Shown here: one piece after another, positions 14,767-25,243 of the stretch
Layout of the letters: each line of letters starts with the position of its first letter
Position numbering within the stretch: position 1 is the first letter of the stretch
IMG/VR virus record: IMGVR_UViG_3300035681_000105
Coordinates: 1 to 27,454 of that record
DNA: 27,454 nt
Strand: one strand, 5' to 3'
Source: a virus
The notes under the pieces: generated by a model
Seen by the model: the letters and a program-made list of their open reading frames with translations, nothing else
Told to the model about the DNA's origin: nothing
Databases searched by the model: none
Translations under genes and position numbers: made by a program

Positions 14767-17391
14767 TCAGAGGGTGTCGTTGCCGCGGCTGAAGGATTCA
14801 GGATGGCGAACGGCGATGTCCACGTCCTGCATGGCGACCACGCGCACAGTGCCGGAAGTGCTGTGGGTGTAGGGGTCAACCATCAGATCCAGGCCGGAGA
14901 AGTAGCCGATGATCAGGTCAGCGAAGTTGCCGAACCACAGATCGCCGGACTCAACCTGATTGGAGAGCACGCCGCGGTAGCCATTGACCTCGTTGCCTTC
15001 CATCACGAACAGGCCGGAGCCGGTGTCTTTGGCCTTGGTCTTCAGACCGCCGCGCATGGCAGCGTTCATCAGGTAGACAGGGCTGCCGAGCAGTGCGTTA
15101 GCAGTTGCCACGTCGCTCTCGAGCGCCACAACCTCAGCGAAGGTGGGGATTGCAGCGGCGAAGTTCTCGGTGCCGATGCCGGTGGTCAGCTTCAGGCCGA
15201 GGGGTTCGCTGTTGCTGCCGGTGCCATAAAGGCCAGCAGCGTCGATCTTGAGCGCAAGCACGCGAGCCAGGTCGTTGCGGACCATGTTCTCCACGTCGAT
15301 GCTGGACTGCAGCATCAGGCGGCGGCTGTAGTCGGTGTAGGCAGCAACCGTTTTGGGGGTCAGGCTGACCTGATCCACGGTCTGCTGGCTCTCGGTGGGC
15401 GAGCCGCTCTCAGCCACCCAATAAGCGGTGGCGGCACCGGACTGGCGGGGAATGGCAACGTTGCCGGTCAGGCCGGTCAGCACGGTGGCGCCAGCTTGAT
15501 CGAGAGCGGAAGCATTGCGCAGCAGGTCGATGAAGCTGCCGGCGTCCAGTTCGGTGGCGACGAGGTTACCGCCAGCGGTGGCAGCGCCCACGTTCAGGTC
15601 ACGGCGCAGCACATCCTGGGGGATGGTGATGCCGCGTGACTGACGGCCGAGTTTGGCCGCAGCAGCCTCGGAGGCTTCGATCTCGAAGGCAGCAGCCTCG
15701 CGGGCCGAGCGATCGGTTGGGTTAGCAAGGAAGTTGATGGCGCGCAGGAAAGAGAAGCTGCGGCTCTCCTTCTCGCTAAGGCCAAGGTCGGCGGCCTGCA
15801 TGGTCACGGTCTCCTGGTGAATGTTGAGCTTGTCGAGCACAGCAGCGCGAGCCTCGTCGATTGAACGACCAGACTCAACCAGCTGCCGGCCCAGGTCTGC
15901 CATGCCGTGCTTGTCGCACAGGGCAGTGATGTCCGAGATGCGGGCGCGTTCGGCCTGAGCGGCCTCGGCCTGCACCACGGCCAGATCGGGGGTGGCGGTT
16001 TCCATTAGAGGAATAGGATCGGGGGATGGTGCTGCCGAAGCAGCAGGGGTGTCAGCCTCAAAAGATCGGCCGATCCCGACGCCGGGGTCAGCCGGCACCG
16101 AGACAACGCTGATCTCATAAGGAGACCAGGCAGTTGCAACATAGTCACCACTGCCACGCTCCTCCATTTTGTCAATGGAGTAGCCGAAGGAAACATTCCG
16201 TAGAACGCCATCCTTCACATCACTCAGGATCTCCTGAGCAAAGGCGTTGCGGCTAAACCGCACGCGTGCATAGCCGCGGCGGCGTTTGCCGTCGATGTAT
16301 GCCCGCTCAACCACGCCGATCACCCTGTCAGGGTTGTGGTTGAACAGCAGCGGTGCGCCATCGTTCAGGCGGCTTAGGTTGGCTGCTTCTTCATCGTGGC
16401 TCAGGATCTCATTGCCGAAGTAACGGGCAACCGGAAACTCAGAGCTGAACGGGAACTCATAGGTGCGGTCCTGCACCTCATCGAAGGTGGTCAGCTCAGC
16501 GCGCTGATACTTGCCGGTGAGGCTGCGCAGTGCCGAGATCTTGGTCAGGGTTGAGAACTTGTGGCCGACCATCGTCTCAGTTGCCTCCCATCCTTCATCG
16601 CCTTCGCGGTAGATGCGGATCAGCGCGGCTGGGTCTTCAGGTGTGGCCTCGATGCTGAACTCAGTGTCGGGCACGCCCAGGGTGCCTTCGCGCATGACGT
16701 GCTCTATGCGGCCCTGAGCGGTGCCGCCGCTGCTGTTCCACCGCACGAAGTCGCCCTCGGACAGATCGCCGGGTTCGGCCCGCTCGCCATCGCCGGTGGC
16801 CTCCTCAAACATGATCGCACTGAAGTCGTGCTCAGCCAGCCAGTCGCGCGCCTCGGCCGGGCTGTACTGCGAACTATTGAACCGGATCGCTTGAATCTCG
16901 CTTTCGCCTTCCTTAATGCCGTAGATGAAGTCGATGCCAGGGCCGCCCGCATCATTCTCACGACGAAGCGAATCATACTGATCCGGATCGGTCAGCCTCG
17001 CGGCGTGTTCATTTGGATAGGGACGCGCTAATTCCACGGCGCTTCGATCTTCTAGTGCTTTGATTCTATCGGCCTTGGCCGTGGCCCAACTTTGACCCGC
17101 ATCGCCGCCCCATGCGGCCCATGCGACACGTCCCGGTGATGGGTAGCCATCTTCATCAGGGCTGAATCCTTCGCCTTGCTTGTCCACCTCATGCCGCGCA
17201 AACCACGCCGCCATGGTGATCACGGTGTCGGGGCTCAGCTCATCACCGCTCAAGATCTGCCGCGCTCTGGCCGCGGCCACCTCAGTGCCGCCTGCCCGAC
17301 CCTCGTCCTTCCAGTCGCGATAGCGTTGCGCCTCGGTCTTCATGCCATCCGTTGGCATCAGATCAATGTCCTGCCCGTTGACGGTTGCCAT
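14767..17391 (-). CDS. Prohead protease - HK97-fold major capsid protein fusion with N-terminal accessory and Tudor-like domains
   Basis: One uninterrupted 874-codon ORF. Residues 20-110 form a phage-specific module (DTVITMAAWFARHEVD, PGRVAWAAWGGDAG). Residues 150-200 include IQAIRFNSSQYSPAEARDWL. Residues 205-290 (EGDFVRWNSSGGTAQGRIEHV...HKFSTLTKI) match the DUF2945/HVA1 Tudor-like pattern. Residues 300-445 are a HK97-type U35 prohead protease with His about 352 (FNHNPDRVIG), Ser about 401 (LRNVSFGYS) and the YEISVVSVPADP strand. A proline/alanine linker and a helical delta-like region follow. Residues 590-874 are the HK97-fold major capsid protein (AYWVAESG, VAAYTDYSRRL, NDLARVLALKIDAAGLYG). 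The protease presumably cleaves itself off during maturation. ATG 17391 has GAGG upstream and overlaps the portal TGA; an earlier in-frame TTG is less likely. Confidence 0.92.
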   Translation of the reverse strand: MATVNGQDIDLMPTDGMKTEAQRYRDWKDEGRAGGTEVAAARARQILSGDELSPDTVITMAAWFARHEVDKQGEGFSPDEDGYPSPGRVAWAAWGGDAGQSWATAKADRIKALEDRSAVELARPYPNEHAARLTDPDQYDSLRRENDAGGPGIDFIYGIKEGESEIQAIRFNSSQYSPAEARDWLAEHDFSAIMFEEATGDGERAEPGDLSEGDFVRWNSSGGTAQGRIEHVMREGTLGVPDTEFSIEATPEDPAALIRIYREGDEGWEATETMVGHKFSTLTKISALRSLTGKYQRAELTTFDEVQDRTYEFPFSSEFPVARYFGNEILSHDEEAANLSRLNDGAPLLFNHNPDRVIGVVERAYIDGKRRRGYARVRFSRNAFAQEILSDVKDGVLRNVSFGYSIDKMEERGSGDYVATAWSPYEISVVSVPADPGVGIGRSFEADTPAASAAPSPDPIPLMETATPDLAVVQAEAAQAERARISDITALCDKHGMADLGRQLVESGRSIDEARAAVLDKLNIHQETVTMQAADLGLSEKESRSFSFLRAINFLANPTDRSAREAAAFEIEASEAAAAKLGRQSRGITIPQDVLRRDLNVGAATAGGNLVATELDAGSFIDLLRNASALDQAGATVLTGLTGNVAIPRQSGAATAYWVAESGSPTESQQTVDQVSLTPKTVAAYTDYSRRLMLQSSIDVENMVRNDLARVLALKIDAAGLYGTGSNSEPLGLKLTTGIGTENFAAAIPTFAEVVALESDVATANALLGSPVYLMNAAMRGGLKTKAKDTGSGLFVMEGNEVNGYRGVLSNQVESGDLWFGNFADLIIGYFSGLDLMVDPYTHSTSGTVRVVAMQDVDIAVRHPESFSRGNDTL

Positions 17392-18971
17392 CAATCCTCA
17401 GGCGCCTCGGTCGGGTCCTCGAGCACAGACTCCTCCTCGTATTCATCCTCCTCCATCGGTGGCTCGGTTTCCTCAAATGCCGGCATCGCGCCCATGCCCA
17501 GCGGGGATTGCACCGCGCCGCTATCGCTCACCTCACTCGGGTCGGTGTCCGTAACGATGTCCATCTCATCGAGCATCGCCAGCTCAGCCTGACGTGCAAC
17601 CAGGACATCCTCAAGATCGCCGCCCTGCTCCGCGATCACCTGGCCCAGCGTCTTGAATCCACACCTGACAGCTGCCTTATAGGCGTTCACCTCGCGTTGA
17701 GGGTCAACCCACTCCCAGCTGCGCGGCACCCACCGGCTGGCGCGATAGCGCTCTGGATTGGTCTCATACCCAGGCAGGCTCAGCGCGCCGCTGAGCACCG
17801 CCATCTCAAGCCACTGCTCAAACACCTGTTGATGGAAGTTCTCCACCATGCACCGCTGCAGCACCCGGTAGGTGTCGCGCTCCTCCAGCAGGCTCAGCCG
17901 GCTGCTGCTGTAGTTGCTCTCTGAAAAGTTCTTGCTGATGCTCTCGAACGAAACACCTACGCCAGCAGCCACGGCCCGCAGCATCGACCGCGTGAACGGC
18001 TCAAGCTGCCCGTCAGGGCTGTTCAGGTCCGGCACCGTGACGCTCTCGCCCGGTTGCAGATACTTGAACACACCCGGCTGAAACTCACTGACCCGCTCGC
18101 CCTCATACACCTCATCACCCACCAGCTCGCCCTCGGGGCTGGTGATGAATCCCATCAGCGCGCTACTCGCACGAGCACGCACCACCTCGGCCTCCTCATA
18201 GCCCTGCAGCATGTGAAGCCGCATCAGCGCAGACGCGAACCACGTCACGCCCCGCGTCTGCCCTGGCCGCTCAGGCAGGAACAGGTGGATCACCTCATTA
18301 GCTGGCACACGGATGCGGCGGCCGTTGGTGCGCGCGTTGCCCGCATAAGTGTCGCCTGGATGATTCGCGTAGAAGTGATACGCCTGCGGCCGCAGGTACT
18401 GATCCACCTCGATGCCCATCCGCACCGTGTTGCCCTCGGCCGCCTGCGGCACGTCATCGTCGATCAGGTAGTCAGCCTCGAGCACCTGCAGCGCAAACGG
18501 CACACGGCTATCACCGAAAGGCCGCTTGATCATCCGCACGAACACCTCGCCCGACTCGGCCATGCTGCGCACCAGCAGGCGCTCGATGTCGTGGAAGCCA
18601 AGAATCCCGCTCACATCGCAGCGGTTCTTATGCATCCACTTCTCCCACTGCTCATGAATGCGGCCGTTGATCGCCTCATCAAGCTTGCCGCCGCGCAGCA
18701 TCCGTACCTGCCCCTGATGCCGGATGCCGTGCCCGATCACGTTGTTCTGGATCGCGCGCAGCGCCTGCTTTGCGTAGTCATTGTCACGGCACAATTGCCG
18801 CGCACGGTTGCGCAAAGCCTTGAAACTCGACTTGATCTCGGCGTCAGCGCTGGTGCCGCTTGTCACCCAGTCCGCTGTCAGTCGGCTAACCCGCGCGCCC
18901 TGATACGCCCGCGCCCGCGGCCGCACCGGCTCAAAACCCATCGCCCGAAACAGTCGCGTCCTCAGTCCCAT
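17391..18971 (-). CDS. Portal protein (lambda gpB family)
   Basis: A 526-residue portal protein, forming the dodecameric ring at one capsid vertex. The N-terminal segment with SFKALRNRARQLCRDNDYAKQALRAIQNNVIGHGI is the hallmark of the lambda-type portal family. Further support comes from EQWEKWM, a FVRMIKRP strand, HLFLPERPGQTRGVTW near residues 230-246 and the SFESISKNFSESNYSSSR segment near 345-362, which corresponds to the conserved wing/stem region. The tail end is acidic (EETEPPMEEDEYEEES). Length is close to lambda gpB (533). The ATG lies one base after the joining-protein stop, and its TGA shares a base with the ATG of the protease-capsid ORF (TGATG). Confidence 0.93.
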   Translation of the reverse strand: MGLRTRLFRAMGFEPVRPRARAYQGARVSRLTADWVTSGTSADAEIKSSFKALRNRARQLCRDNDYAKQALRAIQNNVIGHGIRHQGQVRMLRGGKLDEAINGRIHEQWEKWMHKNRCDVSGILGFHDIERLLVRSMAESGEVFVRMIKRPFGDSRVPFALQVLEADYLIDDDVPQAAEGNTVRMGIEVDQYLRPQAYHFYANHPGDTYAGNARTNGRRIRVPANEVIHLFLPERPGQTRGVTWFASALMRLHMLQGYEEAEVVRARASSALMGFITSPEGELVGDEVYEGERVSEFQPGVFKYLQPGESVTVPDLNSPDGQLEPFTRSMLRAVAAGVGVSFESISKNFSESNYSSSRLSLLEERDTYRVLQRCMVENFHQQVFEQWLEMAVLSGALSLPGYETNPERYRASRWVPRSWEWVDPQREVNAYKAAVRCGFKTLGQVIAEQGGDLEDVLVARQAELAMLDEMDIVTDTDPSEVSDSGAVQSPLGMGAMPAFEETEPPMEEDEYEEESVLEDPTEAPED

Positions 18972-23134: not shown

Positions 23135-25243
23135 TCAAAAGTAGACCCATTTGAGAATGCCATCGACTCGGGTCTTCTTTCGTTGGTACCCGAGGTCGCG
23201 CAGGATGCTGGCCACCTGCATCTGATCGGACCGGGTTTGACGCTCCACCGGCTTGGCCACGGCCTCGGCCAAGAGCACGTCGGTCGTGATGTCCTTGGAC
23301 TTGTTATGGGGTGCCAGAAGCCACGCTTCGATCGGTGCGCGCCATGGCGACTCGACCAGGTAGTCCTCGTTCTGTTGAGCCACCATCGCCTCTTGTTCGG
23401 CTGTGAGCACGCTGGGCTCGCCGTTGCGGTAGGCGGCCACCGCTGCCGACCAAATGGCGTCGCGCTCCTTGAGCAGCGATGACACGTCGATCGGTTTGGC
23501 AAGCGTGCAGGTGACGGGGATGACCCAGAACCGGCGGTTGCCTGTCTCGTCAACAAGCAGGCCGGTGTCGCGGTTGGTTGAACCAACGATGATGCAGCGG
23601 CGCGGGAATGCTTCGGTGGCTTTGCCGTAGGGGATGCGGAAGAGGTCGGTTGATTGGCTCAGGAATGCCTTGACCTGACCGGCGTGTTTCTTGCTGGTGA
23701 TGTGATCCAGCTCGGCCCATTCCATGATCCAGCTGCGATGCAGGACCATCAGGTCGTCTTTTGATCCGATGTCTTTGAGCGCATCGGAAAAGAACTCGCC
23801 ACCGATCGCGGCCCAGAAGGATGACTTGCGTGCGCCCTGTTCACCCATAAGGACCGTTGCGTTGTCGTGCTTGGCACCGGGTTCGTAGATGCGGCGCACC
23901 GCACCGATGAGGGTGCAGCGGATCATGTGGTCATAGAGGGTGGGTTCTGGTGTGGTTGAGTCTTCAGGCCGTAGGTAGGTGGATGCGAGCCGGTCGATGT
24001 AGGTGGGCTGTTCGTGTGCTGCGACGTGGTTCAGGTAGTTCTTAATCGGGTCGTAGGGGTTCGCCTTGGCGATCTTGACTAGGCAGTCGAGTGCGGTCTC
24101 TTTTGAGATCTTGCCGCCGCGTTCTGCGATCTCGAGGTAGAAATGCTCGGCGCCTTCTAGGACTTTGCCGTTGCGTTCGATCTGCTGGGTGAAGATGTTG
24201 TACCGGAGGTTGCCGGCATCCCGTAGCTGCTGCAGCAGCTCGTTTGCCTCCATGCGCTTGAGCGGCTGCGGGTCGATGGGCGTGATGGCTGTGGGCGGGT
24301 GATCGGCAATGACCTGCGGAATGGTGCGTGGCGGCCGCCAGCCGTGTTCACGCGCGAAATACCAGAACGTGCCGGCGGTGACTGATGCGCAGTTGCTGCG
24401 TGCCACCTGCTGCGCTTCGGCAAAGGCAGGGCTGTGGCGCTGGATCATGGCGACAGCCTGATCGGCGGTGCTGCCGGCTTCCTCGCAGGCGGCGATGAGG
24501 CCCCATAGCAGATTGCGGAAGAATGGGTATTGACCGGATTTGGGGATCGCGGCCGGAATGCAGTCGAGGGCCTGCTGGATGTCTGAGAGAGTGCGGGGTG
24601 TGTGGTCGGTGTATTGCTTGGCGCTGATCAGGCGGGTGTGTGTCTGCTCGTCGGGCAGGCAGGCGTTCAGTTGATCTGGGGTGTAGGTGAGATCTGATTG
24701 ATGGATGATGGCCACCTGCTGGCCTGGGTGGCCGTCTGGGCCGATGTGATAGGTGCCGGGCAGGCGCATGACCCGCGAGGGGTTTTTGAGCGTGCGATCT
24801 GCGTCGGCGTGCTCAAGGAGCCGCTTCTGCAGTGAGCGCCACTGATCGGGTGCAATCGGATCAGCGAGCACCCAGTACGTGTGAATCGACTTGCCGCCGG
24901 TGTCAACCTGCAGCGATGGCTCTGGGAGCTGCAGCTCTTGCCATGCGGTGACCTGCCAGTCTTTTGGCCGGTTGTCCCATTCGCAAAAGATGGCGCGACA
25001 GGCGGTGATTTCTGAGTCGGTGTCACCGCCGTCGTTGATGACGACGTAGACGCCGCGGCCCTCGGCCTGCCATTCGTCGATGATGGCGGCTGATGGCGGT
25101 GCTTTGCGGCCTGAGTCACCGGCCTTGAACTGGTGGCCAGAGGGATAGAACGCGCGGAGTCTGGTGGCTTCTTTGGTCTTGCCGAGGATCTTCAGGAACT
25201 GACGAGCGGCGCTGAAGTCAACGGGTTTTGATAGTCTTGCCAT
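23135..25243 (-). CDS. VapE-type primase-helicase (AEP-like primase domain plus SF3-like ATPase)
   Basis: This 702-residue protein is the likely phage replication initiator. Residues about 60-190 resemble a RepB-like archaeo-eukaryotic primase domain: an acidic FCEWDN strand near 86-91, a histidine strand SIHTYWVL near 119-126, and NPSRVMRLPGTYH near 154-166. Residues about 430-600 are the VapE family ATPase (virulence-associated E): a P-loop near 467-474, an acidic strand IMEWAELD near 506-513, a GSTN sensor strand near 554-557 and TGNRRFW near 567-573. The last 70 residues look like a winged helix. The P-loop reads GEQGARKS, with Arg at the usual last glycine; VapE-family proteins appear to tolerate this. 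The repeat-rich spacer immediately downstream is a plausible origin. Confidence 0.88.
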   Translation of the reverse strand: MARLSKPVDFSAARQFLKILGKTKEATRLRAFYPSGHQFKAGDSGRKAPPSAAIIDEWQAEGRGVYVVINDGGDTDSEITACRAIFCEWDNRPKDWQVTAWQELQLPEPSLQVDTGGKSIHTYWVLADPIAPDQWRSLQKRLLEHADADRTLKNPSRVMRLPGTYHIGPDGHPGQQVAIIHQSDLTYTPDQLNACLPDEQTHTRLISAKQYTDHTPRTLSDIQQALDCIPAAIPKSGQYPFFRNLLWGLIAACEEAGSTADQAVAMIQRHSPAFAEAQQVARSNCASVTAGTFWYFAREHGWRPPRTIPQVIADHPPTAITPIDPQPLKRMEANELLQQLRDAGNLRYNIFTQQIERNGKVLEGAEHFYLEIAERGGKISKETALDCLVKIAKANPYDPIKNYLNHVAAHEQPTYIDRLASTYLRPEDSTTPEPTLYDHMIRCTLIGAVRRIYEPGAKHDNATVLMGEQGARKSSFWAAIGGEFFSDALKDIGSKDDLMVLHRSWIMEWAELDHITSKKHAGQVKAFLSQSTDLFRIPYGKATEAFPRRCIIVGSTNRDTGLLVDETGNRRFWVIPVTCTLAKPIDVSSLLKERDAIWSAAVAAYRNGEPSVLTAEQEAMVAQQNEDYLVESPWRAPIEAWLLAPHNKSKDITTDVLLAEAVAKPVERQTRSDQMQVASILRDLGYQRKKTRVDGILKWVYF

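Follow-up and report, generated by a model that had tools for sequence, protein, structure and literature searches.

We analysed a stretch of viral DNA of 27,454 nucleotides (IMG/VR record IMGVR_UViG_3300035681_000105, positions 1 to 27,454), referred to below as the window, and in particular a gene on its minus strand in which a prohead protease and a major capsid protein share one frame behind three small N-terminal modules, here called A, B and T. The frame of 874 codons starts with an ATG at 17391, ends with a stop at 14767 and has zero internal stops in translation; its ATG shares one base with the stop of the portal gene. From the sequences of this gene and its relatives we suggest that it contains a second start, at Met463, just behind the protease. 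The features of the locus are as follows.

14767–17391, minus strand: full-length open reading frame (ORF) of 874 residues, A-B-T, prohead protease, delta-like region and HK97 capsid; predicted minor product (translation, Pfam)
17041–17355, minus strand: module A, residues 13–117, all-helical, no Pfam family found (part of phrog_2859, function unknown; alignments, AlphaFold2)
16783–17034, minus strand: module B, residues 120–203, alpha/beta, no Pfam family (8 phage records; predicted strands and helix)
16522–16776, minus strand: module T, residues 206–290, Hva1_TUDOR-like beta domain (PF11160, model strands, Tudor/KOW matches)
16060–16494, minus strand: prohead protease region S78/U35, residues 300–444, with His352, Ser401 and Glu426 (PF04586, invariant residues)
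15976–16050, minus strand: stretch around Met463, codons 448–472, with depressed synonymous variation (lowest windows of the gene, pair-normalised permutations, linker divergence)
16003–16005, minus strand: internal ATG, Met463, putative start of the capsid precursor (conserved Met, synonymous minimum, weak mRNA structure, codon-bias step)
14767–16005, minus strand: nested ORF of 412 residues, putative capsid precursor with delta-like region and HK97 fold (size, position, junction tests)
15574–16005, minus strand: putative delta-like region, residues 463–606 (position before the capsid domain, within the phrog_617 match)
14770–15573, minus strand: HK97-fold capsid, residues 607–874 (PF05065; phmmer to 8gta chain A)
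17391–18971, minus strand: portal gene, lambda family (PF05136, E 3.6e-108; coordinates)

Three Pfam families match the protein, each above its cut-off, in the order Hva1_TUDOR (PF11160; residues 213–259, E 9.4e-6, 26.1 bits with a cut-off of 24.1), Peptidase_S78 (PF04586; residues 344–437, E 2.6e-9, 37.9 bits with a cut-off of 21) and Phage_capsid (PF05065; residues 607–869, E 3.7e-43, 148.4 bits with a cut-off of 24.2). Ahead of them lie module A, with its AAWFARH...VAWAAWGGD motif (about residues 13–117), and module B, with IQAIRF...EARDWL (about 120–203), an order that agrees with the one proposed in an earlier sequence-only reading of this DNA. The catalytic His and Ser pointed out in that reading correspond to His352 and Ser401 which, together with Glu426, show no variation across 304 aligned protease domains, the window's included; from the family match and these conserved residues the region can be assigned as an S78/U35 prohead protease. 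The HK97 fold proposed for the capsid is borne out by PF05065 and by a solved homologue, the capsid structure 8gta of Dinoroseobacter phage R4C, whose chain A matches residues 607–869 (phmmer, E 1.8e-51). The phrog_617 match spans residues 299–873. NF045541, the model for prohead protease/major capsid fusions, scores 186 bits with a cut-off of 525 and covers residues 307–552 only, so that by its cut-off rule the window protein is a relative of this family and not a member.

Protease and capsid do lie in a single ORF, as had been read, with no stop or frameshift between them. Both are carried in one ORF in 308 of 337 loci and in separate ORFs in none of the 337, most of these loci having been fetched by their likeness to protease–capsid fusions. 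Among the 12 capsid ORFs in loci L338–L428, three are without a protease in the same ORF, and the N-termini of these are, by eye, unlike the internal start.

A Met just past the protease is present in every relative for which the junction was displayed (text patterns missed several). We distinguish four clades, cyano (the window's), roseo, cronus and persinger; these labels are ours and follow the query of each scan (window-like, CRP-821-like, Cronus-like and Persinger-like sets, respectively). In the alignment of the window's clade (58 sequences) the Met463 column has a frequency of 1.00, and an in-frame linker ATG is found in 119 of 121 fusions (306 of the 308 were used and dereplicated to 121). 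The synonymous variation of the entire gene is lowest at codons 460–470, where the ratio is 0.17 compared with a mean of 1.01 (standard deviation 0.27) over all scanned intervals in 63 sequences of the window's clade, four broken-frame loci and duplicates of the same protein having been excluded. An earlier scan of the four clades was possibly biased, as variable linkers compare close relatives only, and the scan was therefore normalised by pair, with column permutations and only pairs at least 75% identical. The normalised minimum lies at the junction in three of the four clades (0.22 in cyano, 0.18 in cronus, where it sits a few codons past the ATG, and 0.32 in roseo; in each of the three, none of 2000 permutations reached so low a value). 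Median synonymous divergence (dS) is 0.27 in the linker versus 0.99–1.15 in the modules.

Codon usage also changes here. In the window the effective number of codons (Nc) is 42.7 and 42.5 upstream of Met463 and 31.3 downstream, and in 263 of the 276 loci that passed our filters (not dereplicated) the capsid part has a smaller Nc than the protease part. The switch in codon usage falls within 10 codons of a linker ATG in 36 of 62 roseo, 24 of 40 persinger, 27 of 66 cronus and 18 of 59 cyano sequences.

Shine–Dalgarno (SD) matches of at least 4 bases are present in the linkers of 88 of the 121 fusions, and of at least 5 bases in 40. Counted by ATG, 53% and 23% of 176 linker ATGs have matches of at least 4 and 5 bases, respectively, compared with 18% and 4% of 1314 ATGs in the protease and capsid domains. 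The signal is strongest in the roseophages, where the anti-SD energy is −6 or lower at 27 of 34 junction ATGs compared with 10 of 132 protease ATGs, and where an SD was observed in 19 of 22, with 6.6 expected from synonymous recoding. In R4C the junction Met189 is preceded by GGAGG, and the deposited capsid chain (8gta) begins at residue 362 of 629. In addition, the mRNA is open around the junction in all four clades, with a median percentile of 0.91–0.99 at junction ATGs versus 0.49–0.67 at other in-frame ATGs. Its structure is weaker than synonymous recoding predicts, and more so than at control ATGs, in cyano (p 2e-6), cronus (p 1e-7) and persinger (p 3.7e-9), with the caveat that both mRNA comparisons used whichever linker ATG had the best SD energy, which is a selection. 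Of 830 codons, only 30 lie in mRNA as weakly structured as that at Met463 or more so; some other gene starts in the window are without an SD as well. Because the clade with strong SDs has no extra openness and the other clades have it, the junctions appear to be marked in two ways, each suited to a bacterial start: by a strong SD (roseo) or by open mRNA (the other clades).

These signals bear on a rival explanation, an obligate fusion, in which each capsid subunit is synthesised with all 874 residues, maturation then removing protease and cassette from all of them. The single uninterrupted frame in 308 loci speaks for it, as do records such as those of S-CBS3, CRP-811 and R4C, which annotate one capsid gene, and the R4C chain that begins at residue 362. 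We regard it as unlikely, since it leaves unexplained the synonymous minimum at the junction, the difference in codon bias, the SDs of the roseophages and the weak mRNA structure. A shorter transcript that starts upstream of Met463 could also give a nested product, just as the nested product of the herpesvirus pair UL26/UL26.5 comes from an internal promoter. The constrained stretch is indeed wide, covering about codons 448–478, and the window's clade has no SD; SD-like sites at start-codon spacing are nevertheless found at roseo, several persinger and R4C junctions, where a promoter would need none, and we consider a promoter very unlikely.

Besides the selection noted above, several results weigh against an internal start. 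The linker ATG is absent from two of the 121 dereplicated fusions. In persinger the synonymous minimum lies within the protease (0.37) with the junction second (0.39), from 47 usable pairs and with 72 of 2000 permutations as low. The change in codon usage is only loosely placed in cyano and in cronus. The excess of SDs over synonymous recoding is modest in persinger (14 of 32, 8.5 expected) and missing in cronus (7 of 21, 6.0 expected), and there is no SD at Met463 (+0.1 kcal/mol) or at the other junctions of the window's clade (0 of 6 representatives, 0 of 21 junction ATGs). The roseo mRNA is not more weakly structured than recoding predicts beyond the control ATGs (p 0.66). Finally, the synonymous constraint at the junction could stem from a promoter or another RNA element. 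We considered the SD as a universal signal of the junction and rejected it, only the roseophages being clear after synonymous recoding.

From the synonymous minimum, the difference in codon bias and the SD sites or open mRNA at the junction, we think it probable that the protease–capsid 'fusion' is a nested gene, with a minor long protease form that carries the cassette and a capsid precursor of 412 residues. The internal start would be a conserved in-frame one of the lambda C/Nu3 kind, with signals that depend on the clade. Initiation at the ATG at 17391, on the portal stop, would give a minor long protein comprising the cassette A-B-T, the protease, the delta-like region and the capsid, and initiation at Met463 (16005) an abundant 412-residue precursor with the same C-terminus. 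Both forms would co-assemble, the long one bringing protease and cassette into the prohead, where the protease would cut both ahead of the mature capsid start, near the position at which the R4C chain begins. We infer the pair of products, their ratio, their co-assembly and their cleavage from sequence comparison. A possible loss on maturation, envisaged in the sequence-only reading for the Tudor-like module, fits the start of the R4C chain, by analogy with that phage. The cassette would then be an interchangeable extension of the protease and not of the whole shell. If the gene is nested, there is no longer the puzzle of why each of about 415 shell subunits should carry a protease, many phage annotations need a second start, and the gene is a protease/capsid counterpart of the classic nested protease/scaffold genes. 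Those genes, lambda C/Nu3, Mu I/Z and herpesvirus UL26/UL26.5, likewise have a long protease form and a short 3'-coterminal form in one frame; their short form is the scaffold, whereas the window's short form would be the major capsid protein, complete with a delta-like region of its own.

The composition of the cassette was counted in complete fused frames from the four viral scans, leaving out 12 named phages and the frames open at the 5' end (5, 11, 8 and 3 in the window-like, CRP-821-like, Cronus-like and Persinger-like sets, respectively). A fourth module, D, is DUF5824-like, its match to PF19141 lying below the cut-off. The window-like set has 53 A-B-T, 19 B-T, 2 A-T and 1 A-B. In the CRP-821-like set we find 18 D, 17 A-D, 12 A-B, 8 A-T, 7 A, 3 with none, 2 A-D-B, 1 A-T-B and 1 A-B-D, and in the Cronus-like set 30 with none, 18 A-B-T, 14 A-T, 6 A-T-T, 2 T, 1 B-T and 1 A-B-T-T. 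All 53 complete frames of the Persinger-like set are without any module. A, B, T and D thus make up 13 combinations, or are all missing, and even close relatives differ. The protease–capsid frame of S-LBS1 also has none of the modules. The addition of the Tudor-like module had been called unusual, which holds only in part: the order A-B-T-protease-capsid is present in 71 fetched loci (53 + 18), some nearly identical to the window, but T belongs to a set of interchangeable modules. In one A-B frame (L095, 4660–5664) the place of T is taken by a HiPIP-like cysteine-rich stretch (PF01355, E 0.038, below the cut-off); the protease gene of phiPsal1 has a similar weak HiPIP-like match. In Roseobacter phage CRP-823 (L428, 1480–4408) the frame is broken within module B into an A-D ORF and a separate protease–capsid ORF, by nature or by a sequencing error.

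Module A is cleanly absent from five loci (L044, L064, L065, L076 and L077) that are 95–98% identical to the window over their best segment. We searched 16 records, several of them fragments: all eight A-less ones contain no copy of A elsewhere, and each of the other eight has one match to A, within an open frame of 798–906 residues. The idea that A has moved elsewhere in phages whose fusion is without it was rejected on the result for these eight A-less records. Median ratios of non-synonymous to synonymous divergence (dN/dS) are 0.076 for A, 0.105 for B and 0.097 for T; the protease has 0.063 and the capsid 0.121. Because the modules come and go, yet have a low dN/dS, they are apparently dispensable but under purifying selection, and appear to be functional.

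Two other views of the modules have to be weighed against these data. The first, put forward in the sequence-only reading, is that the Tudor-like module serves prohead assembly generally, as an internal scaffold or by recruiting a partner. It agrees with the purifying selection on T (dN/dS 0.097) and with the occurrence of T alongside proteases elsewhere, in L360 and, in the following ORF, in DC31. Many relatives, however, keep an intact protease–capsid frame without T, L095 has the HiPIP-like stretch in its place, and the window-like set contains 19 B-T frames, all complete, that do without A and two complete A-T frames without B, S-LBS1 doing without all the modules. Moreover, an internal start would leave most subunits without T; since the module would ride on the minor protease form if Met463 is used, a bulk scaffold role is disfavoured, and the proposal seems to us highly improbable. 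The second view, that the N-terminal modules are functionless passive hitch-hikers of recombination, could account for their coming and going and for sets that have none of them (all 53 complete persinger frames). It is scarcely credible given the dN/dS values of A (0.076), B (0.105) and T (0.097) and the fusion of A to several families of portals and proteases.

The folds of the modules were predicted with AlphaFold2. For residues 1–303 (35 sequences, that is, 34 of 38 chosen loci and the window) the mean predicted local distance difference test (pLDDT) score is 75.7, with a helical A, an alpha/beta B and beta strands at 215–285. The best structural matches of the 215–285 region are Tudor and KOW barrels, tied at Z 6–7.1, below the safe level of the tool. 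Foldseek alone gave zero PDB matches at E <= 0.001, and comparison of the Tudor module with PDB sequences gave no match up to E 10. A Tudor-like domain near residues 205–290 had been read from the sequence, and both PF11160 and the predicted strands support it; because Z is at most 7.1 and Foldseek found no PDB match at that threshold, the label Tudor-like is reasonable without being established. Taken by itself, module A (59 sequences, 58 of 61 chosen and the window) is confidently predicted as five helices with a pLDDT of 94.2 and has no significant match in the PDB (Foldseek best E 4.5; best Z 5.0 in a second structure comparison). Module B was seen in eight phage records, in all of which it is annotated as capsid or head protein.

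Module A is not confined to this gene. Both in phage records and in parts of genome contigs that look phage-like, it is fused to portals of three Pfam families (PF06381 in HATV-3, PF04860 in L353 and L358, PF05136 in L361 and L362) and shares an ORF with an XkdF-type protease (DC31), S78 proteases (L355, L360) and a ClpP-type protease (L352). Small separate A ORFs are found in PaBG, S-CBS4 and Vibrio 1.123.O. A search of a species-genome collection found 338 relatives of A, of which 80 were kept and 51 of these loci inspected by eye; A is a solo ORF in 49 of the 80, many in Rhizobiales contigs. In Neorhizobium sp. SOG26 the solo A lies between ORFs reading like ruvC-ruvA-ruvB and ybgC-tolQR (neighbours named by eye). 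The stand-alone genes of bacterial chromosomes encode about 99–130 residues (e.g. L380, 3971–4360, and L376, 3962–4306). The first module had been described as phage-specific, a description that these bacterial ORFs and the fusions to portals and other proteases contradict. Module A ties the cassette to a stand-alone bacterial gene family of which the tested copies match no Pfam (0 of 2) or NCBIfam (0 of 4) model. A portal in L351 (458–2440) carries at its end A and, behind it, a DUF5824-like module narrowly below the cut-off, the same pair that precedes the protease in roseophages. On a 582-kb Akkermansiaceae contig, a 218-residue ORF (L359, 3965–4621) contains A-T and the start of B and is perhaps a broken prophage gene.

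The placing of the cassette on a low-copy protease form, as the nested gene would have it, fits the presence of A on portals and other proteases, and the cassette marks the place at which these phages add further domains to a head protein. In polyvalent proteins and phage-head-fused effectors of different phages, small domains are attached to portals, MuF-like proteins and proteases; the window's modules are alike in being small domains on a head protein, but no toxin or enzymatic domain was recognised among them. The fusion pattern of A supports a possible likeness to ejected head cargo, and our best guess is that the modules are host- or DNA-directed domains carried inside the head. As a speculation that we hold only tentatively, the long form may serve as a cargo bay: it would load small folded domains, of which A is shared with bacterial genes, the protease would free them in the head, and they would reach the next host together with the DNA. 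The internal start would keep the cargo from filling the shell, and the cargo would be shuffled like a counter-defence arsenal.

Genes in which protease and capsid are joined are known as fusions, among others in Arthrobacter phage clusters AM/AU/AN (PMC5513430), small actinophages (PMC7302621) and PMC11953736. These Arthrobacter and actinophage systems, like NF045541 and phrog_617/phrog_4523, combine protease, scaffold-like region and capsid within a single frame, as in the window; the accessible text of the first two papers describes fusions and mentions neither an internal start nor such a cassette. The papers on the CRP phages (PMC12629253) and S-LBS1 (PMC6157547) name the capsid gene, and their main texts do not contain 'protease' or 'fusion'. 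The R4C structure paper (PMC10276861) gives the count of about 415 shell subunits and has in its main text no word beginning 'protease'. Among the papers listed by searches of PubMed Central we recognised none that reports an internal start in fused or nested protease–capsid genes, a scope outside which subscription papers mostly fall. Also close to the window are Synechococcus phages S-CBS1 and S-CBS3 and Roseobacter phages CRP-811, CRP-821 and CRP-406, where the gene likewise follows the portal and has the protease–capsid frame with subsets of the modules. S-CBS1 and S-CBS3 have A-B without T, unlike the window's A-B-T; CRP-811 has A-T without B, CRP-821 A-D-B and CRP-406 A only.

In the roseophage loci L258–L337 in-frame ATGs with an SD are also in excess between the modules (42 of 172 at −6 or below), which hints at more internal starts. 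Elsewhere in the window, a VapE-like/primase-helicase gene is located at 23135–25243 (PF05272, E 3.5e-65).

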